A DNA stretch of 64,000 nucleotides from Sphingomonas swuensis (lineage in GTDB: Bacteria; Pseudomonadota; Alphaproteobacteria; Sphingomonadales; Sphingomonadaceae). The position numbers were made by a program, and so were the translations under genes. How positions within the stretch are numbered: position 1 is the stretch's first letter; each line of letters begins with the position of its first letter. Shown piece by piece: positions 6,755-29,078 of the stretch. The stretch covers positions 2,626,001-2,690,000 of the forward strand of contig NZ_BAABBQ010000001.1 of assembly GCF_039538045.1 (NCBI RefSeq). The letters run 5' to 3'. Below the pieces are notes generated by a model. The model was not told the origin of the DNA. It searched no databases and was given only the letters and a program-made list of their open reading frames with translations.

Positions 6755-8050
6755 CTAGCGCGCCGCCAGCCGCTGCCGCGCCACCGCCGGCGCGTCACGC
6801 TTGTAGATGTCCTCATAATAAGCGAGCTCGCTGCCGCTCGGGACCACCGTCAGATAGGTGAGGTAGACCGGCACCGGCTGGGCCAGCGGGACCTTCTGCT
6901 CCGGCGCGGCGCCCTTGGCCTTGAGCGGCTTGCCGTAGAGCCATGCGCCAAGGCGATGCGCCGCCTCGAGCCGGACACAGCCGCCGCTGAACAGCCGCGC
7001 TGCTTCGCCGAACAGCTCGTCCTGCGGCGTGTCGTGGAGGTAGATGCCCTGCGGATTGGGGAACATGAACTTCATGTCACCCATGCTGTTCGCCGGCCCC
7101 GGGAGCTGGCGAAGCCGGACTTCCTTGCGACCGGCCGCGACCGCCTTCCAGTCGACGCTCGCCGGGCTGACCAGCTTGGCCTTGTCCGACCAGTCGGACA
7201 GCACCTGGTAGCCCTTGGCCTTGAGGTAGGGTGCGCCGCCCTTGATGACGTTGGGCACGATCCGCTCGGCGGCGAGGTCGCTCGGCACGTTCCAGTAGGG
7301 GCGAAGGCTGGTGTAGCGGATCAGGGCCGCCATCATCGGGGTCGGATAGACCGGCTTGCCGACCACGACGCGCATCATGTCGACGGCCTGCGTGCCCTCC
7401 ATCATGAACAGTCGCTGCGCCGCGGCATTGACCAGTACGTAGCGGCCGCTCGCGGGAAGGCTGCGGATCCGCGCCATGTTGACCTGAACCAGGCCGCGCT
7501 TTGCCGGGTCGAGCCGGTTGTCGGTGATCTGCCGGCGAAGCTGGGCGTAATAGGGATGGAGCCAGCCCATCTCGCGCATGTAGCGGGCAAGGTCGGGCGC
7601 GGCGGCGGCCTGGGCGAGCAGGGTCGCCGCGGCCGGTGCCTGCGGCTTCAGCTCGCCATCGACATAGATGACGCCCATGTTCGGCGCGCGGCGGAGGTCC
7701 TGCGCATAGCGGACATAGGCCTCGGACAACGCCCGCTCGGCGCGGGCCCGTGCCTGCGGATTGCCGCTGCGGGCCGAGCGGACCAGTCGCGGCAGCTCGC
7801 GCATGCGATAGCGCTTCGGGTCGAGCCCGTCGGCGCTCGACGTCGCCAGCAGCGTCAGCAGCTCGTTGGCTGCCGCCTCGTTGCCGGGACGGAAAAACAG
7901 CTCTCCCTGGGCTGGCACCAAGGCCATGGGCTGCGCCACGGCCGGCGCGCTCAGCGCGGCGGGGGTGAGGAACAGGGCCGCACAAAGAAGTGCCGGGCGC
8001 ACGAAGCGCCCGGCACCGGTGCGACCATCAACAGTGATGTTATGGTGCAT
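6755..8050 (-). CDS. L,D-transpeptidase (YkuD family)
   Basis: This 431-residue secreted protein should cross-link or trim peptidoglycan through L,D bonds. The N-terminus carries a signal peptide ending about AVAQP. A peptidoglycan-binding-like helical region (about 40-170) precedes the YkuD catalytic domain. The active-site pattern is present as YLHDTP and, about 15 residues later, SGGCVR with the nucleophile near Cys358. It starts at ATG 8050 with a strong AAGGAG site. The length and layout resemble the YcbB/LdtD type in shortened form. It lies 8 bases downstream of the glycine-zipper lipoprotein gene and is probably cotranscribed with it from the stress-type promoter at 8738-8763. Confidence 0.88.
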   Translation of the reverse strand: MHHNITVDGRTGAGRFVRPALLCAALFLTPAALSAPAVAQPMALVPAQGELFFRPGNEAAANELLTLLATSSADGLDPKRYRMRELPRLVRSARSGNPQARARAERALSEAYVRYAQDLRRAPNMGVIYVDGELKPQAPAAATLLAQAAAAPDLARYMREMGWLHPYYAQLRRQITDNRLDPAKRGLVQVNMARIRSLPASGRYVLVNAAAQRLFMMEGTQAVDMMRVVVGKPVYPTPMMAALIRYTSLRPYWNVPSDLAAERIVPNVIKGGAPYLKAKGYQVLSDWSDKAKLVSPASVDWKAVAAGRKEVRLRQLPGPANSMGDMKFMFPNPQGIYLHDTPQDELFGEAARLFSGGCVRLEAAHRLGAWLYGKPLKAKGAAPEQKVPLAQPVPVYLTYLTVVPSGSELAYYEDIYKRDAPAVARQRLAAR

Positions 8051-26217: not shown

Positions 26218-26973
26218 TCAAAGCGCAGCCGTGGCCAGCGCTTCGACCGCCTCGTCCAGCGAGTCCGCAACCAAGTAGAGCGGCTGCATCGCGTCGTGCC
26301 GGTAGGGCGTCGCCGCCGCCGCCTCGACAGTGAAGCGCCGTCGCTCGATCCCCGGATCCTCAAGGCTCTTCGCTGCCTCGCCGAAGCTCGAGGCCAGCCC
26401 GGCGCCGAGAATTCGGAGCTCGCCCTCCTCGCGGGCCAGCCCGAACTCGACCGTATGCCAATAGAGCCGCGCCACCGCGTCGCCGCGCCCGGCCGCGATG
26501 GCACGGCAGCCCTCCGCCGCGAACCGCGCCATCGCATCGGCAAGCCCGCGATGCGCCAGCATCGGCACATGGCCGTAAATGTCGTGGAAGCAGTCGGGCT
26601 CCTCGAGGTAATCGAGTTGCGCCCGGCTGCGGATGAAGTTGCCGATCGGGAAGACGCGCTGGGCGAGCATCGCGAAGAAGGCCGCGTCCGGCACAAGCCC
26701 GGCGACCGCGACGCAGCGCCAGCCGGTCAGCGGGTGGAGCCGCCGGTTCAACCCCATAAGCTCGGGAATTCCGCCCTCGCCCAGCCCGAGCGCCGCCAGC
26801 CCGTCGAAGAAGGGCGAGACGATCCGTCCCTCGAGCAGCTTCGTCTGCCGCTGGTAGAGGATGTCCCACGTCTCATGCTCCTCGGCGTTGAAGCCGGCCC
26901 AGCCCTGGTCGACGACATAACCGCGCCAGCCGTCCTGCTCGGCGCGGTTGGGGTCGGTGAAATCCTTGAACAT
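26218..26973 (-). CDS. phhA: Phenylalanine 4-monooxygenase
   Basis: This 251-residue pterin-dependent iron enzyme converts Phe to Tyr. The iron ligands are visible: His130 and His135 in CFHDIYGHVPML and Glu176 in LYWHTVEFG. The fold region SRAQLDYLEEPDCFHD is the bacterial-type signature, and the length matches (about 260-290 in the family). The start is ATG 26973; an in-frame GTG at 27000 would lie inside the terminator tail. Transcription must pass a leader peptide and a strong terminator at 27001-27122. The pterin recycling enzyme phhB and hpd are a few hundred bases away. Confidence 0.95.
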   Translation of the reverse strand: MFKDFTDPNRAEQDGWRGYVVDQGWAGFNAEEHETWDILYQRQTKLLEGRIVSPFFDGLAALGLGEGGIPELMGLNRRLHPLTGWRCVAVAGLVPDAAFFAMLAQRVFPIGNFIRSRAQLDYLEEPDCFHDIYGHVPMLAHRGLADAMARFAAEGCRAIAAGRGDAVARLYWHTVEFGLAREEGELRILGAGLASSFGEAAKSLEDPGIERRRFTVEAAAATPYRHDAMQPLYLVADSLDEAVEALATAAL

Positions 26974-27000
26974 GGTCGGGGTCCTTGGTTGAGAAGACAC

Positions 27001-27034
27001 AAAAAACCCCGCCGGACCGGATGGTCGGGCGGGG
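27001..27034 (-). terminator. Rho-independent terminator/attenuator ahead of phhA
   Basis: Read on the minus strand: CCCCGCC, then GACC-ATCC-GGTC inside, then GGCGGGG and six T. The stem is 7 bp plus an inner 4 bp around one mismatch. It lies between the leader peptide stop and the phhA start, so it can only act as an attenuator for phhA. The upstream arm can alternatively pair with GGTGGGG at 27078-27072 inside the leader ORF. Confidence 0.85.
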
Positions 27035-27062
27035 CGGAAAAGACGCTTCTGTCAGACGCGCG

Positions 27063-27122
27063 TCAGCCGATCCCCACCAGGCAGGGATAATAAGCGGCAG
27101 CGGCGGCGAGACGGTTCGTCAT
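27063..27122 (-). CDS. phhA leader peptide with tandem Tyr codons
   Basis: This 19-residue peptide, MTNRLAAAAAYYPCLVGIG, begins at ATG 27122 with GGGAG six bases upstream and ends 28 bases before the terminator hairpin. Two consecutive TAT codons (27092-27087) form the control pair; TAT is the rarer Tyr codon choice in such high-GC DNA. The stretch CTGGTGGGG just after them contains the antiterminator half. By analogy with trp and phe leaders, a ribosome stalled for lack of Tyr-tRNA would free the antiterminator and allow phhA expression. Function is inferred. Confidence 0.7.
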   Translation of the reverse strand: MTNRLAAAAAYYPCLVGIG

Positions 27123-27200
27123 GACATGCTCCCTATCGCAGGCGGCGGCTGAACGGAAGCTGGCCCTTCCATTCGCGCCCGCGCTTCCCACCTCACGGTC

Positions 27201-27541: not shown

Positions 27542-27694
27542 ATGACCACCGAAGGCAAGCGCCTCGCCAAATACACCGCCGTCGGCGCCCTCATCGGGAT
27601 CCCAATGCCGATCATCGGCCCCGTCATCGGCGGCATCGTCGGCGCGGTTCTGGGCGCCCGCAAGAACCAGCGGCTCCACGGCCGCAGCTACTAG
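27542..27694 (+). CDS. Small glycine-zipper protein
   Basis: This 50-residue peptide starts at ATG 27542 with a GGAGAG ribosome site. It carries one hydrophobic glycine-zipper segment ([20 protein letters not shown], then VGAVLGA) and a basic tail ending RLHGRSY. It lies 11 bases after the DOPA-dioxygenase-family gene and overlaps the convergent phhB stop by 4 bases. It is probably membrane-associated; function unknown. Confidence 0.65.
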
Positions 27695-27921
27695 GCCAGG
27701 CCGTCGATCGCCGCGGCCAGTGCATGGTCGCGGTCGGTCACCCCGCCGGCGTCATGGCTGGTCAGGCGGAAATCGACCCGGTTCCACACGCTGGTGAACT
27801 CGGGATGGTGATCCACCTTCTCGGCATGCAGCGCGACCCGCGTGAGAAAGCCGAATGCCGCGCTGAAGTCGGCGAAGCGGAAGCTCTTCACCAGGGCGCC
27901 GTCCTGTTCCTTCCACTCCAC
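27691..27921 (-). CDS. phhB: Pterin-4a-carbinolamine dehydratase
   Basis: This 76-residue protein regenerates the tetrahydropterin cofactor consumed by PhhA. The conserved active-site region [23 protein letters not shown], with the HHPE histidines, is intact. It starts with GTG at 27921. The length is slightly below the usual 95-110 residues, because the N-terminus is short. It is separated from phhA by the divergent DOPA-dioxygenase and glycine-zipper genes rather than being in the same operon. Confidence 0.9.
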
Positions 27922-27989
27922 CGTCCGTCTCCTGTGGCCTTGAAATGCGCTTAGCCCGGGCGCAGGGAAACCGCGACAAGGAGATGTTC

Positions 27990-29078
27990 ATGGCCAGTAC
28001 CGCCACCCTCGAAAAGGGCCCGCTCGGTTTCGACAATCCGATGGGCACCGACGGCTTCGAGTTCGTCGAATATGCCGCGCCCGATCCCCAGCTGCTGCGC
28101 GACCTGTTCGCCAAGCTCGGCTTCCCGGCCATCGCCCGCCACAAGAGCCAGGACATCACCCTCCACCGCCAGGGCGACATCAACTTCCTGATCAACGCGC
28201 ATGACGAGAGCCACGCCGCCGACTTCTCGGCCGAGCACGGCCCGTCGGCCGTCGCCATGGCCTTCCGGGTCAAGGACGCCGCTGCCGCCCATGCCCGCGC
28301 GCTCGAACTCGGCGCCACCGACGTCACCGCCAAGGGCCTCGGCTGGCCCGCGATCGAGGGCATCGGCGGCTCTTTGCTCTATCTCGTCGACCGCTATGGC
28401 GACCATGGCGATGCCTATGCCGACAGCTTCGACTATCTGCCGGGCTATGAGGAAGCGATGCAGGCCTCGGCCAGCTGCCTCACCTATCTCGACCACCTCA
28501 CCCACAACGTCCAGCGCGGCCGGATGGTGGTCTGGGCCGACTTCTACGAGAAGCTCTTCAACTTCCGCGAGATCCGCTACTTCGACATCGAGGGCAAGGT
28601 CACCGGCCTCTTCTCCAAGGCGATGACCAGCCCCTGCGGCAAGATCCGCATCCCCCTGAACGAGAGCCAGGACGACAAGAGCCAGATCGAGGAGTTCCTC
28701 CGCGAGTATAAGGGCGAGGGCATCCAGCACATCGCGCTCGGCACCACCGACATCTACAAGAGCGTCGACATCCTCTCCTCGCGCGGCATCCCCTTCCAGG
28801 ACACGATCGACACCTATTACGACCTGCTCGACGAGCGGGTGAAGGGCCATGGCGAGCCCCTCGACGAACTGAAGAAGCGCAAGATCCTCGTCGACGGCGC
28901 CCCGACCGAAGGCCAGGGCCTGCTGCTCCAGATCTTCACCCAGAACGTCATCGGCCCGATCTTCTACGAGCTCATCCAGCGCAAGGGGAACGAGGGCTTC
29001 GGCGAGGGCAACTTCAAGGCGCTGTTCGAGTCGATCGAACTGGACCAGATCCGGCGAGGCGTGATCAGCGCGGACTAA
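27990..29078 (+). CDS. hpd: 4-hydroxyphenylpyruvate dioxygenase
   Basis: This 362-residue Fe(II) enzyme converts 4-hydroxyphenylpyruvate, the transamination product of Tyr, to homogentisate. Iron ligands are His169 (LDHLTHNV), His247 (GIQHIAL) and Glu327 (FYELIQRKG). An AAGGAG site six bases before ATG 27990 fixes the start; an ATG two codons earlier is too close. It follows phhB divergently. Together with phhA/phhB it takes Phe to homogentisate, but the later steps (hmgA, maiA, fahA) are not in the window. Confidence 0.96.
   Translation: MASTATLEKGPLGFDNPMGTDGFEFVEYAAPDPQLLRDLFAKLGFPAIARHKSQDITLHRQGDINFLINAHDESHAADFSAEHGPSAVAMAFRVKDAAAAHARALELGATDVTAKGLGWPAIEGIGGSLLYLVDRYGDHGDAYADSFDYLPGYEEAMQASASCLTYLDHLTHNVQRGRMVVWADFYEKLFNFREIRYFDIEGKVTGLFSKAMTSPCGKIRIPLNESQDDKSQIEEFLREYKGEGIQHIALGTTDIYKSVDILSSRGIPFQDTIDTYYDLLDERVKGHGEPLDELKKRKILVDGAPTEGQGLLLQIFTQNVIGPIFYELIQRKGNEGFGEGNFKALFESIELDQIRRGVISAD

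Follow-up and report, generated by a model that had tools for sequence, protein, structure and literature searches.

The window, by which we mean the whole 64-kb stretch of DNA analysed (64,000 nucleotides), belongs to the 2.79-Mb genome of Sphingomonas swuensis. On its minus strand, between positions 26960 and 27200, it carries a promoter-like block, a 19-codon open reading frame (ORF), a terminator rich in G and C with a run of six T, and the gene phhA, in this order (Table 1). The PhhA protein scores above the cut-off of its Pfam family (140.2 bits, cut-off 22.7), and the solved structures that it matches best are phenylalanine-4-hydroxylases. It falls just short of the NCBIfam equivalogs for phenylalanine 4-monooxygenase (233.2 vs 247 for NF008877 and 232.7 vs 264.75 for TIGR01267), both of which are passed by its relative in the basal genome G017 (273 and 310.1). 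Judging from the family, its substrate would be phenylalanine. The program-listed ORF (26218-27000) begins with a GTG and opens right behind the T tract; the ATG at 26973 is the likelier start. Two further genes lie close by, one for pterin-4a-carbinolamine dehydratase, which usually accompanies PhhA to recycle its cofactor, and one for 4-hydroxyphenylpyruvate dioxygenase (HPPD), an enzyme of tyrosine degradation. In bacteria, phenylalanine hydroxylase is mostly treated as catabolic.

Table 1. Features of the phhA locus, in positions of the window
Feature	Position	Strand	Basis
phhA, aromatic amino acid hydroxylase, 251 aa	26218..26973	-	Pfam Biopterin_H, PF00351
Intrinsic terminator, stem from 27035 to about 27007, T6 at 27006-27001	27001..27035	-	folding
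Arm 3, CCCCGCC, also part of the terminator 5' arm	27028..27034	-	folding and helix comparison
Leader ORF, 19 codons, MTNRLAAAAAYYPCLVGIG, ATG 27122-27120, stop TGA 27065-27063	27063..27122	-	read from the sequence
Arm 2, GGTGGGG, downstream of the Tyr codons and ahead of the leader stop	27072..27078	-	duplex and helix comparison
Regulatory codons, two adjacent TAT (Tyr)	27087..27092	-	read from the sequence
Promoter-like block: CTTCCGTTCA at 27159-27150, 12 nt, GATAG at 27137-27133	27133..27160	-	sequence pattern; putative promoter
Pterin-4a-carbinolamine dehydratase	27691..27921	-	PF01329
4-Hydroxyphenylpyruvate dioxygenase (HPPD)	27945..29078	+	PF14696

Leader and terminator are confirmed in the window: the leader ORF, its tandem TAT codons, the terminator with T6 and the coordinates of the two arms, all taken from a preliminary description of this DNA, hold on re-reading and folding. 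The 5' arm of the terminator is GCCCCGCC (27035-27028, minus strand), and the isolated terminator folds at -24.9 kcal/mol (z -4.4), a value equalled or bettered by none of 200 shuffles. Three sites in the window passed a filter for T5 with a single hairpin below -12 kcal/mol. The phhA terminator is the sole one of them with a YY frame ending just upstream; another, near 7897, has FF in its upstream frame. A consensus scan of the window did not list the phhA-leader terminator, perhaps owing to the mismatch in its stem, and returned one other site vs 1.4 expected from shuffles. At gathering scores, Rfam gave no match at the leader for a T-box or any other known RNA family; below these scores three weak matches were obtained, the best with E 0.0041 (21.8 bits vs 49.5 required).

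The promoter-like block stops 10 nt short of the leader ATG; a consensus scan of the window listed no promoter. A box of the TTCA-N12-nATAn type precedes the leader ATG in 47 of the 65 records compared and ends 9-10 nt upstream of it in 39 of these; the choice of ATG is uncertain in some of the 65. The ribosome site of the preliminary description is present in the window as GGGAG. It is not kept in relatives, as Shine-Dalgarno-like letters occur in 17 of the same 65 records. Since the -10-like box so often lies 9-10 nt upstream and such letters are found in so few records, transcription of the leader may begin practically at the ATG and give a nearly leaderless mRNA. An inverted repeat, GAATGGAAG-N6-CTTCCGTTC (27151-27174, minus strand), spans the upstream part of the promoter block and occurs in some close relatives too; it is a possible operator for a protein regulator.

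Conservation and pairing of the leader

PhhA was found in 65 of the 71 genomes of the genus, at 69 places. Upstream DNA could be taken from 129 of 132 loci (the genus places and 64 loci from a collection scan) and was scanned by script. A covariance model of 62 sequences, named R1, placed the element 12-165 nt upstream of phhA at 66 of the 69 places and in 64 of the 65 phhA-bearing genus genomes, counts that are not an independent test of conservation, as many of the same sequences went into the model. In G055 the element is an R1 match alone. It is missing at three places, namely both phhA copies of G031 and the second copy of G013, and both of these genomes have a TyrA match.

The script retained 68 leader records, four of which belong to two genera outside this one (g41 and g50), and the leader stop lies 26-35 nt before the terminator in 67 of the 68. 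All 59 distinct leaders from the genus have Tyr within their last 16 residues; 55 have two or more, 49 have YY and 31 YYY, so that YY is missing in 10, and four have a single Tyr. The script took the frame with most Tyr among the candidate stops, which biases single cases. Another four leaders, outside this count through failed filters or lack of a BLAST match, show on reading Y.Y (G016, L097), YY (G070, L118, and G053, L129) and YYY (G069, L130). With one further distinct leader (L037), from a close Sphingomonadales record outside the 71 genomes, Tyr occupies position -10 from the stop in 42 of 60 leaders, and positions -9 and -8 in 50 each; counted over all positions, the Tyr codons are 134 TAT and 20 TAC. 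Because both codons are used and split forms such as YAY are found, selection seems to keep the Tyr residue rather than a DNA repeat. The peptide is variable save for Tyr and the stretch dictated by arm 2. The upstream alignment proposed in the preliminary description has thus found the leader ORF and its Tyr codons kept in the genus, and also in two further genera.

Conservation is the strongest argument against a chance element. Short ORFs and hairpins are common, and a chance terminator behind a meaningless ORF might look like the present one; the kept Tyr codons, the narrow spacing between stop and terminator and the pairing described below nevertheless refute this explanation, which we regard as practically negligible.

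Pairing was compared in 62 distinct records, between the last codons of the leader and the segment before or inside the terminator 5' arm. Matched arm 2/arm 3 duplexes had a mean of -21.9 kcal/mol vs -18.6 for permuted ones (sd about 0.35), and none of 5000 permutations was as low. True arms gave a z of -9.4 and a control with arm 2 reversed -4.2; when the set was reduced to 28 dissimilar records, these became -6.2 and -3.0, respectively. Part of the signal is thus due to relatedness, since the reversed control still reaches -4.2. The score of the best continuous helix of each record, selected as the best, gave z 9.6 against permutation and 5.5 for the reversed control.

Changes on both sides of the arm 2/arm 3 pairs, a compensatory pattern also sought on the advice of the preliminary description, were seen at several positions among the 62 records: C-G in 11, G-C in 13 and U-A in 1 at helix position -16; G-C in 40, C-G in 5 and G-U in 1 at -15; C-G in 19, A-U in 21 and G-C in 4 at -14; U-A in 28, C-G in 13 and U-G in 18 at -11; G-C in 38, U-A in 14, U-G in 4 and G-U in 1 at -10. 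The terminator itself has two-sided changes in three of its nine predicted pairs across 62 sequences.

Where arm 3 ends varies by clade. Its end lies clearly within the terminator 5' arm in 23 of 62 records, the window included, and barely touches the terminator (offset 0 or -1) in 14; in the other 25 the covarying helix stops at least 2 nt ahead of the terminator anchor, and there pairing does not exclude the terminator. A mutually exclusive antiterminator, as first described, is therefore found in the window, where the duplex has seven pairs, one of them G-U, inside the terminator 5' arm, and in roughly half of the relatives, not in all.

For folding, 59 records were used (3 of 62 were dropped for lack of Tyr in the last 12 residues); the script placed the stem of L020 wrongly. 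With a ribosome at the first Tyr codon and the terminator 3' arm not yet made, at least half of the terminator 5' arm was occupied in 30 of 59 records. With the 3' arm present, the same stalled ribosome led to loss of the terminator in four minimum-energy folds and left it in 55. In a model of the RNA alone, the stretch below the leader stop formed the terminator in 58 of 59. When the leader of the window was folded without the terminator 3' arm, the antiterminator was absent from its minimum-energy fold. In these models, antitermination must be kinetic, because the full-length minimum-energy folds keep the terminator in 55 of the 59 stalled-state records. For the abutting records, one may speculate that a helix set against the terminator base blocks the closure of its last pairs in the polymerase exit channel.

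These observations bear on a control without overlap, in which leader translation acts by coupling or through a helix abutting the terminator, and the pairing of arm 2 with arm 3 serves some other purpose in some members of the clade. The helices that stop short of the terminator, and full folds that mostly hold both structures, speak for it; we find it rather unlikely, however, as pairing lies within the terminator 5' arm in the window, in its close relatives, in all three records tested from g41 and g50, and in basal genomes.

Distribution of the leader and of TyrA

TyrA, the usual enzyme for making tyrosine, was searched for with PF02153 and had no match in the source genome. It was over the cut-off in 4 of the 71 genus genomes (controls 14/14 positive). 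Among 249 family genomes, each at least 90% complete, 221 had it over the cut-off (controls 13/14). Seven of the 28 TyrA-negative family genomes were scored so from gaps in the match list, and G014, whose weak match stays under the cut-off, is included among the negatives. PhhA is present in 213 of the 249.

R1 matches with E below 1e-10 were obtained in nine of the 249 family genomes (five from the genus and two each from g41 and g50), all before phhA. None of these nine has TyrA over the cut-off, and none of the 221 TyrA genomes has a strong match; 15 candidates were scored per genome under strict filters, and weak leaders may be missed in these counts. Upstream DNA of phhA was also read in 34 TyrA-bearing genomes and in 17 genomes from seven TyrA-less genera (g7, g17, g48, g51, g56, g61 and g76), and no such leader was seen in either set. 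TyrA and leader co-occur in G017, G013 and G062, the TyrA match of G013 being split.

That the leader comes as a rule after loss of TyrA was considered and rejected, as seven of ten TyrA-less genera are without it in the 17 genomes read and the leader-bearing PhhA fall in one clade. In a tree of 101 PhhA sequences, 37 leader-bearing ones group with a leaderless copy from G031 in a single clade, 38 rows in all (support 100/99, midpoint root). In this tree L025 of G013 bears the label TyrA-less in spite of the split TyrA match of its genome, an error that leaves its position unchanged. The association between leader and TyrA loss apparently rests on about one origin, which Fisher values for it disregard, so that they are not to be read as probabilities, and the leader may be older than the loss, because the TyrA-bearing G017 also has it. 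The seven leaderless TyrA-less genera with PhhA perhaps represent independent moves to PhhA-made tyrosine. As a separate observation, five near-complete genomes, G029, G038 and G041 of the genus and G119 and G192 of g50, have neither a PhhA match nor TyrA over the cut-off (for G192, PhhA is scored absent from its absence in the match list). They are possible tyrosine auxotrophs or may use another route.

The surroundings of phhA in basal relatives point to a role in biosynthesis. In G017, genes for prephenate dehydratase (PDT), chorismate synthase, dehydroquinate synthase and shikimate dehydrogenase are followed by the leader and phhA, all in one direction (PDT-aroC-aroB-aroE-leader-phhA), with an EPSP-synthase-like frame, identified by eye, ahead of the cluster. 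Also by eye, PDT-like and aroC-like frames were recognized upstream in G285 (g50), and aroC-, aroB- and aroE-like frames in G069. We further noted by eye that phhA lies behind aroE-like frames at L203, L204, L131 and L132, and that a leaderless phhA copy follows aroE in G031 and G013.

Such a context has to be weighed against a catabolic one, in which phhA opens phenylalanine breakdown via the adjacent HPPD and the attenuator, as a tyrosine feedback, halts it when tyrosine is plentiful. The HPPD and pterin dehydratase genes that adjoin phhA in the window favour this explanation. We nevertheless consider it unlikely, since TyrA was not found, leaving the cell without another known tyrosine source, and since in basal relatives phhA is the last gene of a cluster for aromatic biosynthesis. 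The same two points support the earlier proposal that phhA serves here as a gene of tyrosine biosynthesis.

As to the phenylalanine that this would require, neither prephenate dehydratase (PF00800), which is present in 14 of the 71 genus genomes, nor the PheC-type fold (PF00497; controls 12/14 positive) was found in the source genome. The organism either imports phenylalanine or makes it by another enzyme, and the tyrosine argument stands in both cases.

Other amino-acid leaders in the genus

Twenty second-tier R1 matches of the genus search were read. Nine look like Thr/Ile/Met-rich leaders with terminators (L223-L228 and L230-L232, in G013, G019, G021, G022, G031, G050, G053, G054 and G069) preceding genes that resemble aspartokinase or homoserine dehydrogenase; two of these genes were tested against NCBIfam, as fragments, and stayed below the cut-offs, and the rest were assigned by eye. 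Four are Trp leaders (..WWR...) before trpD-like genes (L229, L234, L236 and L242, in G003, G034, G038 and G048), two of which were tested against NCBIfam and both passed the cut-off. One more, in the source genome itself, is a Trp leader, MLRTPSSLLARRWWRWQVSSGVPA (WWRW), with a terminator before a DAHP synthase gene (L238, G000:C1:2350505-2350608, plus strand). The remaining matches (L233, L235, L237, L239, L240 and L241) look like ordinary gene ends or unrelated terminators.

Leaders with WW or WWW precede DAHP synthase at 29 of the 30 genus loci read, 28 of them found by script and L270 by eye; L255 is a locus that starts at a contig edge. That DAHP synthase has a Trp-only leader because the Phe and Tyr branches were lost was considered and dropped, as WW or WWW occur regardless of whether prephenate dehydratase is present. 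The Tyr leader before phhA fits this habit of amino-acid leaders in the genus.

Proposed mechanism and comparison with known attenuators

We consider it likely, from comparative sequence evidence, that the element is a ribosome-mediated attenuator responding to charged Tyr-tRNA and setting transcription into phhA for tyrosine synthesis. With ample Tyr-tRNA, the ribosome would reach the leader stop and, going by its usual footprint, cover arm 2; the terminator would then form and phhA would be off. With scarce Tyr-tRNA, the ribosome would stall at the tandem Tyr codons and leave arm 2 free to pair with arm 3 in the terminator 5' arm, allowing read-through into phhA, whose product would convert phenylalanine to tyrosine. 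A conserved RNA switch before phhA thus probably opens at tyrosine shortage. The preliminary description had already read the locus as a Tyr-sensing attenuator, and this reading is supported by the conserved leader with its Tyr codons, the two-sided changes in the pairing and the absence of TyrA.

In a fuller account, which we hold with about as much doubt as confidence, PhhA would be the only tyrosine-making enzyme of the lineage, controlled by a ribosome-mediated attenuator that is specific for tyrosine and whose leader mRNA is nearly leaderless. This attenuator would have arisen once, in an ancestor with phhA in an aromatic-biosynthesis cluster, before most descendants lost TyrA, and in one sub-clade the antiterminator would abut the terminator instead of overlapping it.

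If the element responds to tyrosine as proposed, it would be the first Tyr-specific ribosome-mediated attenuator and the first on a phenylalanine hydroxylase, as far as our literature search reaches: among the matches listed in a search of the open-access literature, titles and abstract openings revealed neither. It would also explain how tyrosine synthesis is controlled in a TyrA-less lineage, and would caution against naming such genomes tyrosine auxotrophs. The overlapping, touching and abutting helices would offer a natural series on the distance between antiterminator and terminator that silencing needs.

Proteobacterial attenuators have reportedly been surveyed by Vitreschak and colleagues (2004). 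The trp, phe, his and thr attenuators of proteobacteria likewise combine a leader ORF with tandem regulatory codons and a terminator, and in them too a segment after the codons pairs alternatively with the 5' side of the terminator. Here, in contrast, the regulatory codons are Tyr codons and the gene encodes an aromatic amino acid hydroxylase. One study lists, for other species, His, Thr and Phe under attenuators and Tyr under T-boxes (PMC1262725).

Putative attenuators have been predicted before tyrA gene clusters of several bacteria, and there too genes of the tyrosine pathway would be attenuated (PMC1173090); they stand ahead of tyrA clusters, not of phhA. The same source describes the phh operon of Pseudomonas aeruginosa, whose hydroxylase belongs to the same family as the PhhA studied here, under a sigma-54 promoter and the activator PhhR, in phenylalanine and tyrosine catabolism (PMC1173090). 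A precedent for PhhA as tyrosine supplier is given by Legionella, which needs phhA for growth in tyrosine-depleted medium (PMC3458870). In Corynebacterium glutamicum, the aroR leader, with Phe-Tyr-Phe, precedes an operon with DAHP synthase; according to a review, it answers phenylalanine limitation and not tyrosine availability, unlike the leader proposed for phhA (PMC11802643).

Another alphaproteobacterial attenuator is trpL (rnTrpL) of Sinorhizobium meliloti, whose RNA starts at the leader ATG; both an sRNA and a leader peptide derived from it act in trans (PMC7298713). By analogy, the leader and terminator before phhA might mainly yield a short stable RNA or peptide acting elsewhere, control of phhA being secondary, and the nearly leaderless look of the phhA leader agrees with this. 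We judge it very unlikely, however, given that the element stands before phhA at nearly all places of the genus and that the peptide varies outside its Tyr residues and the arm 2-dictated stretch. The attenuator proposed here for phhA differs from that of S. meliloti, which has Trp codons and precedes trpE(G).
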